DNA of 64,000 nt. Origin: Slackia sp. (lineage in GTDB: Bacteria; Actinomycetota; Coriobacteriia; Coriobacteriales; Eggerthellaceae). The position numbers and the translations under genes were made by a program. Below, piece after piece: positions 1,963 to 52,021 of this stretch; within the stretch, counting starts at the first letter, position 1, and each line of letters begins with the position of its first letter. The notes under the pieces were generated by a model. It ran no database searches and was not told the DNA's origin. It saw nothing but the letters and a program-made list of their open reading frames with translations. The stretch covers positions 1 to 64,000 of the forward strand of contig JARIED010000019.1 in NCBI GenBank assembly GCA_029266945.1, given 5' to 3'.

Positions 1963-3231
1963 CTACATCACCTGATGTCTGCGGAAGAACACCGCCGCAA
2001 GCGGCAGGCACGCCGCGAACAGCACGCCGTATACAAGCGCCTGCATACCCACGAGGTCGATTACGAAGCCGCCGAAGGGATACGACATATACTGCCAGAA
2101 CATGAAAGGCGCCGCCAAGCCGCTCGTCGGGAAAAGCGCGCTGAGGCGCATAAGAGCCCCGACGCCGCCCGTGGGTATCATGCCCGTCAGAAGAACAAGC
2201 GCCACATCGATGGCAAACACCGAGAGCATGGAGCGCATCACCGACGAAAGCAGCAGCGTCAGGCCCGCGAATCCGAGCGTCATCAGGTAGGCGATGCCCG
2301 TCATGGTCGCAGCCGCCTGCGCCATGGTCAGGGCATACGGCGACGAAACCGCGCTTATCTGAATGGGCAGTTCGGCGCCGCCCGCACCGTGCGCGCCGAG
2401 CGATACGACGAAAACAATGCCGGCGCACAGCGCGAAATACGCCGTTGCAAACAAAAAAGCCGCGACAAGCTTCGCCGCCACCAACCTTGAGCGTCCATAG
2501 CGCGACGACAGAATAACGCTGTCGGTGCGCTCCTGGTATTCCGCCGCGAACATCGGCGCCAGCGCCACGCACACGGCGATCATCGCGAACGCCAGAAAGC
2601 CCATGCAATCCATGATGTTTTCCCAGCCGCCCGCATAGCCGTACGCGATCGGCGTAGAAACTTCGGCCTGCTTTTGCGTCCAATAAGCACGCTCGGTCTC
2701 GGAATACGTCCATGCGCCGCCTTGGCCGTCATCAAGGATCGACTGGGTTTTCTGCGCGAGCGCCTCATAAAACGGAGTCTCGGGCGAAGGACCCAGCAGA
2801 GCCGACACCTGGATGGGCTCTTTGCCACCCGAATTCCACGCACTGAACAGCCACGGCCAATACCCCGAGCCGTACAGCTCACGCGCGCCCTGTTCGCCAT
2901 ATGCCGTTCGCACCGCATCGTAGGCCGCCGCATCGCTCATAGCCGCCACTTCTTTGGGGTCGAGTTGGGAAAACGCCATGTCGAAATACGCAGCCGTCTC
3001 GGCCTCGATACGCTCGTCGGTCAAAACGCCCGCACGGGCCTCGGCGTTCGCTTGGCGCTGATAGATCGCATCGAGCCCCGAAAGAATCTCGTCGGTGTTG
3101 CTCGTGGTTTTCGTCTGCAGCACATTCAGCGCCATAATCGCGCATAGCACGGCAACAATCGCCAAGCATGTATACCGCGTCGATTTACGCGCGACAATCT
3201 TCTTGAGCTCGAATTTCACCAGGTCGAACAT
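1963..3231 (-). CDS. ABC-2 type transporter permease
   Basis: A 422-residue membrane protein: one N-terminal helix (YTCLAIVAVLCAIMALNVLQ), a large ~150-residue extracytoplasmic region, then about five more helices in the C-terminal half. This is the topology of ABC-2 permeases of the antibiotic-exporter/NatB type. The ATPase gene ends 2 bases upstream, so the two surely form one exporter. Last gene of the ECF sigma operon. Substrate unknown. RBS AGGAGGTAGCC precedes the ATG. Confidence 0.8.
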   Translation of the reverse strand: MFDLVKFELKKIVARKSTRYTCLAIVAVLCAIMALNVLQTKTTSNTDEILSGLDAIYQRQANAEARAGVLTDERIEAETAAYFDMAFSQLDPKEVAAMSDAAAYDAVRTAYGEQGARELYGSGYWPWLFSAWNSGGKEPIQVSALLGPSPETPFYEALAQKTQSILDDGQGGAWTYSETERAYWTQKQAEVSTPIAYGYAGGWENIMDCMGFLAFAMIAVCVALAPMFAAEYQERTDSVILSSRYGRSRLVAAKLVAAFLFATAYFALCAGIVFVVSLGAHGAGGAELPIQISAVSSPYALTMAQAAATMTGIAYLMTLGFAGLTLLLSSVMRSMLSVFAIDVALVLLTGMIPTGGVGALMRLSALFPTSGLAAPFMFWQYMSYPFGGFVIDLVGMQALVYGVLFAACLPLAAVFFRRHQVM

Positions 3232-5855: not shown

Positions 5856-6608
5856 CTACTCCTCGCACACGGCCCACACGCGGGCGGGAAGGCCCGATGC
5901 GCCTTCGATGCGCGGCCAGGCCACGAACACGATGGCACCCGCAGGCGGCACCTTGTCCAGGTTCGCAATAACCTCCACCTGCAAGTGGCACGTATCGAGC
6001 ACGTAGCGTTCCACCGCCAAGTCGTCGGCCTCTGCAGCAAGGTACGACGCATCGGTGTCGAAGGTCTCGTGGCCGTTCATGGCCACGCCGCGCTCTTCGA
6101 ACAAGAACTTCAGCGTTTCGATCGACCAGCCGGGGCAATGCTCGCCGCCATCTTCGTCCAGGTTGCACAAGGCATCGTAGTTCGGCCAGCGCTTGTACCA
6201 GTCGGTACGCAGCGCGACGAACGCACCCTCGGGAATGCGGCCGTATTCGGCTTCATAGGCAAGAACGTCATCGATGGTCACGGCGTAATCGGGGTTTTCG
6301 GCGGCCTTCGCGGAAATGTCGATCACGCACAGCGGATAGGCGCTCTGCTCCACGCCGAACTCCTCAGCGGCAGGGCGGCCTGGCATGAAGTGCATGGGAA
6401 AATCGACATGCGTGCCGAACTGACCAGGGAATTTATAAGTGTGAATGCGGCACGAAAGCATTTCCTCGTCGTAATCGAACACGGTCTTGCACAGCTCCAC
6501 CGAGCCGTCGGGGATGCCGCCCCAATACGGGCTTTCGTTCGTCAGCGGATGGGTCAGATCGACCCAACGGCAGCGCTTCAACTTCTCAAGATCGCCCCAC
6601 AAGCTCAT
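5856..6608 (-). CDS. Cyclase family protein (kynurenine formamidase-like hydrolase)
   Basis: 250 residues of the PF04199 cyclase fold, a metal-dependent amide/ester hydrolase family that includes bacterial arylformamidase KynB and isatin hydrolase. The metal-binding motif is clear (FGTHVDFPMHF, HxGTHxDxPxH type with Phe replacing the first His) and the later GHETFDTD matches the catalytic region. It stands alone with no tryptophan-catabolism neighbours, so the substrate is open. The ATG has the RBS AAGGAGGCATC. A terminator-like hairpin lies in its leader. Confidence 0.85.
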   Translation of the reverse strand: MSLWGDLEKLKRCRWVDLTHPLTNESPYWGGIPDGSVELCKTVFDYDEEMLSCRIHTYKFPGQFGTHVDFPMHFMPGRPAAEEFGVEQSAYPLCVIDISAKAAENPDYAVTIDDVLAYEAEYGRIPEGAFVALRTDWYKRWPNYDALCNLDEDGGEHCPGWSIETLKFLFEERGVAMNGHETFDTDASYLAAEADDLAVERYVLDTCHLQVEVIANLDKVPPAGAIVFVAWPRIEGASGLPARVWAVCEE

Positions 6609-26797: not shown

Positions 26798-27273
26798 CCC
26801 CTCGATTCCTCTTGCGACAAAAGACGTTCAGCCGATTCTATCCCAATTTCTGCATAAAAGGAAAACAAAGAGTCCACCGATCGCACATCGATCTCATCGA
26901 GAACGCGCTGAATGCAAGATTTCGACGAAGCGTCCGAGACGCAGAAACCAACGCCCCGGCAAAGCACAGGACAAAGACACCCGCCCATGGCGGCAGCGAC
27001 GCCAAAAGGGAAGCCGAACAACACTCACCCATATGGGCGATGTCTTTTGACCTGGACTTTTCGAAATCGTATTCCGCGGCGATACAAAGGCGCGCCGCAG
27101 CCGAATAGTATGGACCCCAGATAACGCGCGCAGCGGTTTTACGACGAGACCCTCCTATCCTCTCGGAGTTCCGTCCTGCGCGCGTTTTCGTCTCGCCCGA
27201 AGTAAGAAGGGAGGTGCGGGCGAACGATTCCATAGGCGAGTCCACGCCACCACATGACAAATAAGGGGGAACT
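26798..27273. promoter_or_regulatory. Divergent control region of heme/SUOX module 1
   Basis: 476 bases with no convincing gene. A plus-strand promoter candidate is TTGACC (27047-27052), 17 bases, TATTCC (27070-27075), leaving a ~190-base leader before the heme lipoprotein gene. The RBS is AAGGGGGAAC. LuxR-type sites should lie here, but none can be defined by eye. Confidence 0.45.
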
Positions 27274-48350: not shown

Positions 48351-49145
48351 CTATTTCACGAACACGAAGGTATCGTTTGTCGATAACTCCTGATCAAACG
48401 CATACCCTGCCGCATCGAAGCGCCTGAAGTCTTCCACGCGCCCGATCGCGTTTTCGGCGCACCAGCGCACAAAGGTACCGCGCGCCGCCTTCGCCTCAGT
48501 CGAGCGCTGCGCAAGCTTGCCGGCGCGCGGCGTGCCGAACAAGCATGTCGTCACGCACACGTCGCCGCCCGCTTTCGCGGCGGCCTTCGCATGCGGCAAC
48601 ACGGCCTTGGCGTATTCGACCGACGCCAGGTTCACGATCGTGCGTTCGCCGGCAGCATCGCCCTCCTGCTGCGCGATATCGGCCGCCAGCGCCTCGTATA
48701 AACGCGAACCCCAATAGCCGTACAAATCGCGCGCACCGCCCACGGCAAGTTTCGCCTGCATTTCAAGCCGGTACGGCACCACCGCGTCGAACGGACGCAG
48801 CACGCCGTAAAAGCCGGACAGAATGCGCAGGTGCCGCTGCAGATAATCGAGCTGCCCCTGCGTCATGACCTGCGGCGCCATGTTCTGGTACTGGATGCCT
48901 TCGTACGAAAATGCCGCGGGCGTGCATGCGGCGGCGCAGGCGGGGTCCATGCTTTGCACGCGCTCGTAATTCAGCTCCGCCAACGCGTCGCTGCACTTCC
49001 ACAGCGCCTTCGCCTCGTCGTAAGAAAGCGCGCGCATCGCCTCGAGCAGCTCGCATGTCTGCGGAAGAAAACACGGCATGTCGCGCCACGCGAACGAATC
49101 GGCCGCGTCGACCATCTTCTTGGCGGGGGAGATTATGAACAACAT
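48351..49145 (-). CDS. yaaA: YaaA/DUF328 family peroxide-stress protein
   Basis: 264 residues from ATG at 49145 (MLFIISPAKKMVDAA; RBS GAAGGA). Family marks: ISPAKKM, FSYEGIQYQNMAP, ILSGFYGVLRPFDAVVPYRLEMQAKL and the end FRRFDAAGYAFDQELST. In E. coli YaaA lowers free iron and DNA damage during H2O2 stress. It follows fic on the same strand, preceded by an operator module nearly identical to that of fic. Confidence 0.92.
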   Translation of the reverse strand: MLFIISPAKKMVDAADSFAWRDMPCFLPQTCELLEAMRALSYDEAKALWKCSDALAELNYERVQSMDPACAAACTPAAFSYEGIQYQNMAPQVMTQGQLDYLQRHLRILSGFYGVLRPFDAVVPYRLEMQAKLAVGGARDLYGYWGSRLYEALAADIAQQEGDAAGERTIVNLASVEYAKAVLPHAKAAAKAGGDVCVTTCLFGTPRAGKLAQRSTEAKAARGTFVRWCAENAIGRVEDFRRFDAAGYAFDQELSTNDTFVFVK

Positions 49146-49209: not shown

Positions 49210-49298
49210 CCAATACGCATTAATCCGATAAAAAACAACACGTTTCTTTATCGGATTGTCTCGTTTTCAGGCAATCCGATAAAAAATGCTATCGAATC
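49210..49298 (-). repeat. Operator/promoter module A (before yaaA, overlapping the fic 3' end)
   Basis: In plus sense AATCCGATAA (49222-49231), 16 bases, TTATCGGATTG (49248-49258), 13 bases, CAATCCGATAA (49272-49282), then a degenerate CTATCGAATCG overlapping the fic stop. A -35-like TTGTTT (minus) lies in the 16-base spacer. Same unit order and spacing as module B at 50561. Confidence 0.75.
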
Positions 49299-50521
49299 GC
49301 AGGCGTCTCATCGGAAGCGCGGCGCTCAAGCTCTTCGAGATTACACGCGTAGTACACTTTACGACCCATCTTTTCGACGGCGACGATGCCTTCCTGTTTA
49401 AGCCGTTTGAGACGACGCTGCAACGTCGGCTTGCTGATGGCAAGCGCATTGCACAGTTCATCGGCCGTCGCGCCATAAAGCGCAAACAGGCGTGCGACTA
49501 TGAGAACGCATACGATGTCGGAAATATATTTATCATCTTCCGAAGAATACAAGCGCAAAGCGAGCGACTCGTATTTCCGCAAGCTCGAATCTCTTTCCGC
49601 AAGCGCCTCCTTGAGACGCTCCATCCCCACAAGCACGATATTAACGAACTCAATAACAAACGGTGTCAGATCGCCCTTATTGAGGGGGTGCTCGCACACC
49701 ATAAACGCTTTGTAGTACCGCCCTATCTCTTCCTTGATGGCAAAGGAAAGTCGCAAACCAACAAGGCGTTCATACTCGCTAGAAATGATATAGCTGCTGA
49801 TAAACCTGTTCGTGCGTCCATTGCCGTCATAAAACGGATGAATGTAGCCGAAGAGAAAATGACCGACTGCAGCGCGCACGATAATATCGACCTCTTTGTT
49901 CCCGAGAAACGAAATCATGCATTCCATCATTTCAATAATTTTCGACTCAGGGGAAACGCCGCGATGTATTTCACGTTCAGCACTATCAACGACAGCAACC
50001 GACCCGGCACGAAAATATTTGCCATCGGGGACCTTTTTACCGTCAGAAGCGCGCACTTCCTCTAAAACCAAATCGTCGTAAAGTCGTCTTATGTCTTCGC
50101 ACGAGTCAAGCGGAACAATCTTGCCACGCAACAACATATCGTACTTAGCAACGATTCCATGAAAACGCTTGCGCCTATCGTTCTGTTCAAGGGAATCAAG
50201 AACGTCACTGACCTCCCTACGTGTGGAATGGACGTTTTCTATCTCATTCGTGAGGACGATTTCATCGATAAGACACGCATTTGCGTAATCCGATATCGCC
50301 TTTCCTGGCAATGTCTCGACGAATTTATATATTTCTTTATCAAGCCTCGCAGCTTTCATCAGCATCGAATTCAACGCTGGAGTAATCACGAAAAACGCTG
50401 GATCATTACCGATATTGCAACCGACTTTTATCGCGAATTCGGAGTTGAAACGACTTTCGTAAAGGGCTTTTTCATCCGTGTTGGGGTCGTGGAACGCCTT
50501 GCGTAACGTCTTGTACTTCAT
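49289..50521 (-). CDS. Fic-domain protein with C-terminal winged helix
   Basis: 410 residues from ATG at 50521 (MKYKTLRKAFHDP; RBS GGAGGAGAT). Fic motif HPFYDGNGRTNRF (HxFxDGNGRxxR), giving AMP transfer to a target hydroxyl. The N-terminal inhibitory helix TNEIENVHST ([S/T]xxxE[G/N]) marks class II, self-restrained. The C-terminal ~60 residues are a helix-turn-helix (ATADELCNALAISKPTLQRRLKRLKQEGIVAVEKMGRKVYY), so it may also bind DNA. GC content is clearly below neighbours and codons are AT-richer, suggesting transfer. The target is unknown; the flanking repeated operators could be its own sites. Confidence 0.9.
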   Translation of the reverse strand: MKYKTLRKAFHDPNTDEKALYESRFNSEFAIKVGCNIGNDPAFFVITPALNSMLMKAARLDKEIYKFVETLPGKAISDYANACLIDEIVLTNEIENVHSTRREVSDVLDSLEQNDRRKRFHGIVAKYDMLLRGKIVPLDSCEDIRRLYDDLVLEEVRASDGKKVPDGKYFRAGSVAVVDSAEREIHRGVSPESKIIEMMECMISFLGNKEVDIIVRAAVGHFLFGYIHPFYDGNGRTNRFISSYIISSEYERLVGLRLSFAIKEEIGRYYKAFMVCEHPLNKGDLTPFVIEFVNIVLVGMERLKEALAERDSSLRKYESLALRLYSSEDDKYISDIVCVLIVARLFALYGATADELCNALAISKPTLQRRLKRLKQEGIVAVEKMGRKVYYACNLEELERRASDETPAIR

Positions 50522-50560
50522 ATCTCCTCCGAGCAGACCTATGCCCCACATCTTATAGCG

Positions 50561-50650
50561 AAGATATACAATGCGATAAAAAATAGCAACTCTCTTTATC
50601 GCATTGTCTCGTTTTCGGATGATTCAATAAAAATGTTATCGGATTGCGAG
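50561..50650 (-). repeat. Operator/promoter module B (before fic, overlapping the methyltransferase 3' end)
   Basis: In plus sense CAATGCGATAA (50569-50579), 16 bases, TTATCGCATTG (50596-50606), then degenerate ATGATTCAAT and TTATCGGATTG, the last containing the methyltransferase stop. In minus sense TTGCTA (50584-50589), 17 bases, TATCTT (50561-50566) is a promoter whose -35 is enclosed by the perfect 11-bp inverted repeat. Confidence 0.8.
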
Positions 50651-51913
50651 CGACCCTTCAGCGCGGCGGGCGATTGCTTTGCCGATGCGATGCACCACGT
50701 CCACCACGAGCGCGTTGCCCATGCAGAACGCACGGTGACCGTCGGTCATGCCCGTGGCGGTCCACCCTTTCGGGAAGGTCTGCAGCTGGTCGAGCTCGTC
50801 AGGCACCAGACGGCGATATCGACCGCTTTCGGTTTTCACCACGTGTTTGAAGCGCGACGCGCCCGCGCCGCCTTCGCCCGTCAAAATGGTACGCGACGGC
50901 TTGTCGATCGCATCGGGAAACGCCATGCCGCCTTCGCTGTACATGTACGTGAAACCCGACGCGTGCGTGCGCTCCTCTTTCTTGGCGCCTTTGAAATACT
51001 CCCAACGCTCGAGTTTGTCGTCGTCGATGAAAAACGCCTCGGGCACCTGCTCTTCGGGAATCAGCACGTCACCGAGCGTTGCGAAGGGGCCGCCGCACAC
51101 GGGCGTCACCTCTGCAGTGAACACCTCGCCGTTCTGCATGGCGCCCGCGCCGTGAAACGGCGACGCCTTCAGGCCTTTACCGAAGTTTTTGCTCACCTCG
51201 TACGGCTCGCCCTGCACCGCGAATGCATTCGCCTTCGTGACCAGGCGGTTAACGGGAAACGCCTCGGCCATCACGCCGCCTTCGCGCACACGCTCCTCGA
51301 TATTCCACGCAGGCGCGCCCTTTTCGGCATACACGTACACGCGGCGACGGCGCTGCGGCGCGCCGTAATCGGCCGCGTTCACCACGCGCCATTCCACCGA
51401 ATAGCCGCGCTCGTTCAGGCACGCCAGCATGATGGCGAAATCACGGCCACGCTGCGACGCGGGCGACTTCAGCAGGCGGTCCACGTTTTCAAGCAGCACG
51501 TATTTCGGCGAGCACAGATACAGGAAGCGATAGATCTGCCACCAGAGCACGCCCTTCTTACCCTCGATGCCGCCCGACTGGTTCTTCGGCCGCGCCACCG
51601 AATAGTCCTGGCACGGGAAGCCGCCCACCAGCATGTCGTGCGCGGGAATAGAGCGCACGCCCGCCTCCACCTGGTCGAGCACGCATTCGATATCTTCATT
51701 GACGATGGACCCCTCGCCGAAACGCTCGGCGTAGCAGCGCGCCGCGAACTGGCGCGTTTCGGTTCCAGGAGGCTCCCACTGGTTCGCCCAAACGGTCTGG
51801 AAATCGCCCGCCGCGGGACGATGCCAGCCGCGCTCTTCGTCGTCGTATCCATCGAGCGCCAAGCGGAATCCGCCCACGCCCGCGAACAATTCGGCAACGC
51901 GAATCTTCGTCAT
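50636..51913 (-). CDS. DNA cytosine-5 methyltransferase (orphan)
   Basis: 425 residues from ATG at 51913 (MTKIRVAELFAGVGGFRLALDGY; RBS GGAGG). C5-MTase motifs: I AELFAGVGGFR, IV VGGFPCQDYSVA with the catalytic Cys, VI LLENVDRLL, VIII QRRRRVYVYA and IX/X RRLVPDELDQLQTFP, GNALVVDVV. The target-recognition region is ~230-330. No restriction endonuclease or Vsr gene is adjacent, so it may be epigenetic or a relic of an R-M system. Ends inside operator module B. Confidence 0.93.
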   Translation of the reverse strand: MTKIRVAELFAGVGGFRLALDGYDDEERGWHRPAAGDFQTVWANQWEPPGTETRQFAARCYAERFGEGSIVNEDIECVLDQVEAGVRSIPAHDMLVGGFPCQDYSVARPKNQSGGIEGKKGVLWWQIYRFLYLCSPKYVLLENVDRLLKSPASQRGRDFAIMLACLNERGYSVEWRVVNAADYGAPQRRRRVYVYAEKGAPAWNIEERVREGGVMAEAFPVNRLVTKANAFAVQGEPYEVSKNFGKGLKASPFHGAGAMQNGEVFTAEVTPVCGGPFATLGDVLIPEEQVPEAFFIDDDKLERWEYFKGAKKEERTHASGFTYMYSEGGMAFPDAIDKPSRTILTGEGGAGASRFKHVVKTESGRYRRLVPDELDQLQTFPKGWTATGMTDGHRAFCMGNALVVDVVHRIGKAIARRAEGSLAIR

Positions 51914-52021
51914 GCAAGCCTCCATAGCATTCGTTTGTATCGGACCCATGATCGCAAATAGAGCCCGCTCCGTCAAGATCGCACGGGCGGACGGCACCGC
52001 CCGCTTACGCCCCGAACGCAA

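Follow-up and report, generated by a model that had tools for sequence, protein, structure and literature searches.

Results

Two modules of paired half-sites flank the fic gene

Two related DNA modules, R1 and R2, lie on the minus strand of the window (the whole 64,000-nucleotide stretch of Slackia sp. DNA that was analyzed) and are predicted from their sequence and position to be tandem operators for the Fic protein, whose gene lies between them, a reading to which we assign a probability of about 75%. The modules are very probably Fic's own operators because (i) they occur in two copies, at regulatory positions, by the genome's only Fic gene, (ii) palindromes of the same geometry are found at homologous fic genes in two phyla, and (iii) a proven Fic-HTH autorepressor, CccR, exists (PMC9755527). 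The genes of the locus follow one another on the minus strand in the order transporter, C5-cytosine DNA methyltransferase (50636..51914), fic (49289..50521), yaaA (48351..49145), and htpG. Translation likely starts at the ATG at 50521 for fic, which follows GGAGGA, and at the ATG at 49145 for yaaA, which encodes a peroxide-stress protein (PF03883) and is the proposed second target.

A single Fic-domain protein was found in the genome; it comprises 410 aa, with H228 as the catalytic histidine. Its catalytic motif, HPFYDGNGRTNR, fits HPFx[D/E]GNGRxxR (Pfam Fic, 5.7e-12), and HPFYDGNGR was unchanged in an alignment of 57 homologues, in which E95 of the inhibitory motif TNEIEN (T91-N96; consensus [S/T]xxxE[G/N]) was invariant too. 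By these two motifs, it is classified as a class II Fic protein and a predicted AMPylator. The winged helix that it had been said to end in was found at about residues 328-404: TrmB/ArsR/MarR-type HTH models match residues 351-410 of the ORF, and the AlphaFold model (pLDDT 95.9) displays C-terminal helices followed by a two-stranded wing. Among solved structures, the model was closest to full-length Fic proteins, namely a Mycobacterium marinum Fic, CbFic2, SoFic, and 7xux; the last, a Fic-domain protein with a release date of December 2022, probably represents CccR.

Module R1 (49221..49299) is located between fic and yaaA, while R2 (50569..50646) lies 5' of fic. Aligned across 79 nt, the two are 78% identical (E 2e-15); the match extends from half-site h3 to just beyond half-site h0 and no further. 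Both modules have the layout h0-h1-core-h2-h3, with the conserved core GTCTCGTTTTC at 49258-49268 in R1 and at 50606-50616 in R2. On the minus strand, the half-sites of R1 are CGATTCGATAG (h0, 49289-49299), TTATCGGATTG (h1, 49272-49282), CAATCCGATAA (h2, 49248-49258), and TTATCGGATTA (h3, 49221-49231), and those of R2 are CAATCCGATAA (h0, 50636-50646), TTATTGAATCA (h1, 50620-50630), CAATGCGATAA (h2, 50596-50606), and TTATCGCATTG (h3, 50569-50579). The 11-bp half-sites h2 and h3 form an inverted repeat with a gap of 16 nt in both modules, whereas h0 and h1 form a second one with a gap of 6 in R1 and of 5 in R2, where it has decayed. The four half-sites of each module thus make up two candidate operators in tandem. 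The fic stop codon falls within operator A of R1 (49272..49299, minus strand; CGATTCGATAG-N6-TTATCGGATTG), and the yaaA start codon lies about 75 bp beyond operator B (49221..49258, minus strand; CAATCCGATAA-N16-TTATCGGATTA). In R2, the decayed operator A (50620..50646, minus strand; CAATCCGATAA-N5-TTATTGAATCA) includes the methyltransferase stop codon, while operator B (50569..50606, minus strand; CAATGCGATAA-N16-TTATCGCATTG) is a perfect inverted repeat, with the fic start codon about 48 bp beyond it. Since both arms of h2/h3 in R2 have changed in a matching fashion relative to R1, the symmetry of the palindrome has been preserved. The distance from h1 to h3 is 51 bp in both modules, and that from h0 to h2 is 41 and 40, i.e., one turn shorter.

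The twin layout, the 16-base gap between the inverted half-sites, and the shared core had all been recognized in the original prediction and were borne out, and the pairing across the core that it had described is that of h1 with h2, the facing halves of the two neighboring operators. A -35 element had also been placed inside the spacer, but this was not supported, as a scan with the sigma-70 consensus revealed no site at the modules on their (minus) strand. As had been noticed, the modules overlap the 3' ends of fic and of the methyltransferase gene: both genes end in ..AIR-stop, and in each case h0 includes the stop codon. At 50636-50660, module R2 has rewritten the C-terminus of the methyltransferase, which reads ..RRAEGSLAIR-stop here vs ..RRAEEAAGE-stop in the related genome G102.

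The modules are confined to the fic locus

Genome-wide copy numbers were determined by pattern searches. Allowing up to three mismatches, TTATCGNATTGTCTCGTTTTC was found only at R1 and R2, with no hits for the reversed control, and the pattern CGATAA-N12..20-TTATCG matched only at these two places. The 1.52-Mb genome (39 contigs) contains therefore two copies of the module, one on either side of its sole Fic gene, and a dispersed repeat or MITE was rejected. Three further candidates were discarded: (i) a CGATAA..TTATCG pair with a gap of 22 at C20:18568, 5' of a ribonuclease-Y-like gene, which equals the level of the reversed-pattern control; (ii) a single exact match to the core on a viral contig, with no palindrome around it, which we read as chance; and (iii) TTACCGTATyGTCTCCTTTTC strings in other Eggerthellaceae, which belong to an unrelated conserved element and not to the module. 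This element, GCGTTACCGTATyGTCTCCTTTTC..CAATGGTACACTA, is conserved in several Eggerthellaceae genera (L005, L006, L008-L012, L014-L017, and L021, at position about 1500), includes a near match to the core, and resembles a conserved promoter or leader sequence.

Palindromes of constant geometry precede fic homologues in two phyla

Homologues of fic were collected from the 40 of 140 family genomes that proved to have one and from 80 further loci of a scan of named genomes, and the resulting set was mostly from Bacillota and Actinomycetota. For each gene, the best palindrome with an outer span of 28-44 was sought in the 160 bp upstream. A score of at least 10 was reached by 52 of 99 fic homologues vs 9 of 157 other genes at the same loci, and a score of at least 12 by 40% vs 0.6%; the mean score was 10.4 for fic, 6.2 for the control genes, and 6.1 for dinucleotide shuffles. 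The 99 homologues are related and hence not independent, and 51 operators were reduced to 43 after removal of proteins at least 80% identical. With the search settings applied, no strong palindrome was seen for about half of the homologues, perhaps partly due to wrong start codons or imperfect sites.

The letters of the half-sites vary by lineage (TATTGAGTTAAAA..TTTTAACTCAATA, AATAGACCAAAAA..TTTTTGGTCTATT, CTATCGGAAAGAATC..GATTCTTTCCGATAG), whereas the geometry is constant: 9-mer half-sites stand 16-17 nt apart, a gap that partly reflects the fixed dyad distance at which the 9-mers were cut, and the inner part is A-rich and then T-rich. Outer spans, as delimited by the search itself, are about 32-44 nt. 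A geometry that stays fixed while the letters drift is what would be expected of a protein that binds as a symmetric dimer and co-evolves with its site. A second copy of the operator (at most 3 mismatches in 18) was present in 11 of 59 upstream regions vs none of 59 coding controls, at a spacing of 51-52 bp in ten cases and of 103 in the remaining one. Duplication of a 51-bp unit can explain the identical units of Gemella, but it accounts less easily for the others, whose spacers differ; the fixed phase of 51-52 bp points to two dimers on the same helix face.

It could be argued that fic and yaaA are controlled jointly by another transcription factor, since Fic binding is predicted from sequence and covariation specific to its recognition helix is not significant. 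By eye, SRQT[LMV]YKRL appeared together with GAGTTAA, and SRNT[IV] with TTGTCAAAA or TTATCAAAA. However, once overall protein similarity was removed, partial correlations between recognition helix and operator were 0.04 (p 0.22) and 0.05 (p 0.11) for two metrics, and helix-operator covariation is not claimed for this reason. Even so, operator similarity tracks similarity of the Fic domain (Mantel p 0.001), the sites adjoin fic in many genera irrespective of its neighbors, fic-less relatives have none at the same locus, and no second regulator gene is recurrently linked, all of which make a separate regulator highly improbable. Binding by Fic itself remains the preferred reading.

Candidate sites downstream of fic were detected for only 7 of 52 homologues, the sites being mostly upstream only. 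In Adlercreutzia-type genomes, a third copy follows fic and faces the end of rpsI; it cannot act as an ordinary promoter operator and would be a terminator, a loop partner, or a cassette end, so that promoter operators do not account for every site. At three loci (L030, L031, and L035, from genomes G060, G062, and G059), a near-perfect operator-like palindrome lies 40-70 bp after fic, facing convergent rpsI. In another genome, G081, which has no detectable fic, two TTGAGTTAA palindromes stand in tandem between rpsI and metA at a distance of 52 bp (L193, about 2950-3080; G081:C4, about 26950-27080). Adlercreutzia-type genomes have fic at this type of locus, and the palindromes are possibly a relic after loss of fic.

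The convergent fic/rpsI pairs of Adlercreutzia-type genomes, whose perfect A5..T5 palindromes resemble two-way terminators, invite the view that the palindromes act as RNA, namely as terminators or an attenuator in a methyltransferase-fic-yaaA transcript, with h0:h1 and h2:h3 hairpins competing against h1:h2. The modules do sit between co-directional genes, and on either strand R1 and R2 fold into far more stable RNA structures than shuffles (z -4.1 to -4.6). Nevertheless, folding as RNA is a property of any DNA palindrome, the four terminator-like sites in the region all lie outside R1 and R2, and the fixed phase of 51-52 bp together with lineage-specific half-sites better fits a DNA-bound protein. 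We consider a role in RNA very improbable and retain operators as the preferred interpretation.

The origin of fic raises yet another possibility. With a GC content of 47.9% vs a window median of 62% and with no counterpart in G102, although the methyltransferase of that genome is 97% identical, fic looks horizontally acquired. The modules could then be recombination sites or the ends of a mobile fic cassette, similar to a gene cassette between direct repeats: they are direct repeats flanking fic, with the 3' ends of the upstream genes inside, R1 presents the 11-6-11 layout of tyrosine-recombinase core sites in h0-6-h1, and G081 has tandem sites with no detectable fic. Yet no recombinase was found among the recurrent neighbors, most homologues possess upstream sites only, and the DNA-binding domain is carried by Fic itself. 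Furthermore, the letters diverge strongly by lineage while the geometry is kept, and divergence in step with Fic is not expected of sites used by an external recombinase. A recombination site is therefore very improbable in our opinion. As the modules end exactly where their outer half-sites do, they give the impression of an operator unit and not of recombined flanks; hence, of the proposal that fic arrived with its flanks by recombination, the horizontal arrival is partly supported, while the recombined flanks are not.

A site before yaaA accompanies fic in Slackia

Other Slackia genomes were compared at the methyltransferase-yaaA locus. The palindrome score before yaaA was 12 in the window and 12 in G109, a genome of the same genus in which R1 recurs (81% over 115 nt) and whose sequence stops within the 3' end of a fic-like ORF, so that only the last fic codons are visible. 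In fic-less G102, G107, and G108, which have the same locus, no palindrome precedes yaaA, with best scores of 5, 5, and 6, respectively. Genome G100, in which both genes are present, uses another half-site, ATTGAGTTA: it stands before fic and, with two mismatches, again about 55 bp past fic, that is, before yaaA; its yaaA promoter thus carries a copy of the TTGAGTTA site of its own lineage. In Slackia piriformis, the roughly 83 bp between fic and yaaA contain no site, and upstream of fic there are only solitary TTATCGG-like half-sites. A site before yaaA was therefore found in 2 of 3 other fic-bearing Slackia (G109 and G100, not S. piriformis) and in 0 of 3 fic-less ones, so it goes with fic, and in G100 its letters follow the genome's own fic operator.

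Some features of these loci are worth recording in their own right. The yaaA genes of several Slackia genomes (pairs L057/L064, L058/L066, L060/L065, and L061/L068) apparently contain an insertion near residues 165-230 that varies in length and separates two well-conserved halves. The fic-less intergenic region of G107 (L077, about 5990-6240) harbors a long-spaced inverted repeat, GGAAATTTCCGTTTTCC ... GGAAAACGGAAATTTC, which is perhaps the remnant of another insertion.

In the whole set, yaaA was the most frequent neighbor of fic, in tandem, divergent, and convergent orientations. It also adjoins a distant Fic subtype (31-35% identical), which is convergent in genus g32 and divergent in Slackia G110 (L044, L047, and L052), where the Fic protein is 31% identical and two palindromes occupy the common intergenic space. 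The adjacency of fic and yaaA would thus seem to have arisen more than once, or yaaA may mark an insertion hotspot. In g32, yaaA closely follows another gene, and no site was found before it. Family-wide conservation of the proposed yaaA control was rejected, as the evidence for it was confined to Slackia.

Could R1 be a mere by-product of module duplication, with R2 regulating fic and R1 having no effect on yaaA? R1 and R2 are alike across the entire module, the downstream copies of Adlercreutzia-type genomes have no promoter role, and S. piriformis has no site before yaaA. Against this, the operators of R1 are better kept than those of R2 (both A and B are recognizable), R1 is conserved in G109, and G100 has an equivalent site written in different letters. 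We judge such a by-product rather unlikely, albeit with a real chance of being correct. Control of yaaA by Fic through R1 is plausible but inferred; accounting for S. piriformis, this part of the original prediction, according to which Fic would bind the sites and regulate both itself and yaaA, stands less firmly than the self-operators, which are very probable.

Discussion

The arrangement described above suggests the following working model. The two winged helices of a Fic dimer would each occupy one half-site of an inverted repeat whose gap is 16-17 nt, and two such dimers, adjacent to each other and about five helical turns apart, would cover the promoter. In this way, Fic would repress its own gene, like CccR, and the same protein would repress yaaA through R1. 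A potentially toxic AMPylator could thereby be kept scarce, and fic and yaaA would be released together once Fic leaves the DNA, for which ATP or target binding, phage infection, and oxidative stress are candidate signals. YaaA of E. coli reduces the free iron pool during peroxide stress (PMC8115020). As a concrete candidate for a second target, yaaA would couple protection against iron and peroxide to an enzyme that is possibly abortive or growth-arresting.

Fic proteins that end in a winged helix occur widely, and some of them participate in phage defense. The occurrence of switches of the same geometry at fic relatives in two phyla suggests that a large Fic family may control its own genes, and the common geometry provides a testable rule: the operator should be predictable from the DNA upstream of such a Fic gene. 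It is tempting to go further and to view the winged-helix Fic proteins of Gram-positive gut bacteria as a large undescribed class of DNA-bound AMPylator switches, whose dimers would stack cooperatively on operators phased at five turns, so that one assembly would set both transcription and AMPylation activity, with some lineages having wired in a neighbor, yaaA, as a companion or antidote. This generalization is speculative, and we consider it distinctly unlikely as a whole.

In the open literature on Fic together with an operator, a palindrome, or autoregulation, only CccR and CbFic2 were relevant, and CccR was the only C-terminal winged-helix Fic found to bind a defined operator. CccR of Yersinia pseudotuberculosis is a Fic-HTH autorepressor (3.3-fold autorepression) whose C-terminal part binds DNA in EMSA, with a footprint on AGATAATCAT-N26-ATGATAATCT; dimerization is required, and binding is lost when the palindromes are mutated (PMC9755527). 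The Slackia protein resembles it in being a class II Fic with a C-terminal HTH and a long-spaced palindrome at its own promoter. However, CccR is a T6SS effector of low sequence similarity to the Slackia Fic, and its operator is one 10-bp inverted repeat, whereas Slackia has tandem operators and a further module before yaaA. The 26-nt CccR spacer was not found at the Slackia fic, where the gap is 16 nt (16-17 in the family, 5-6 in operator A), about one turn less, and we regard the Slackia site as a variant. That the gaps of 6, 16, and 26 are each about one helical turn apart is only suggestive, as the limits of the half-sites were not defined alike.

CbFic2 of Coxiella burnetii (PDB 8cil) likewise combines Fic with a winged helix and forms a dimer, and DNA binding stimulates its activity; unlike the Slackia protein, it bound random DNA in the reported tests, has no known operator, and modifies histones (PMC10628234). 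SoFic is represented by Shewanella SO_4266, SoFic and SoFic-AS1 of E. coli are anti-phage proteins (PMC12249575), and DNA binding by SoFic was described as undemonstrated in 2023 (PMC10628234). The Slackia Fic shares with SoFic the full-length fold, including the C-terminal domain (3eqx, TM 0.63/0.70), and the inhibitory and catalytic motifs. The PADLOC SoFic profile, a model with no cut-off given, matched its residues 68-403 (E 7.2e-32), while the NCBIfam SoFic equivalog (NF046030) scored 42.4 bits, below the cut-off of 550. Finally, the locus recalls the Phd-Doc toxin-antitoxin system, in which a Fic-fold toxin locus is controlled via palindromes at its own promoter. There, it is the antitoxin that binds DNA, whereas in Slackia the toxin, the inhibitor helix, and the DNA-binding domain would be united in one polypeptide.
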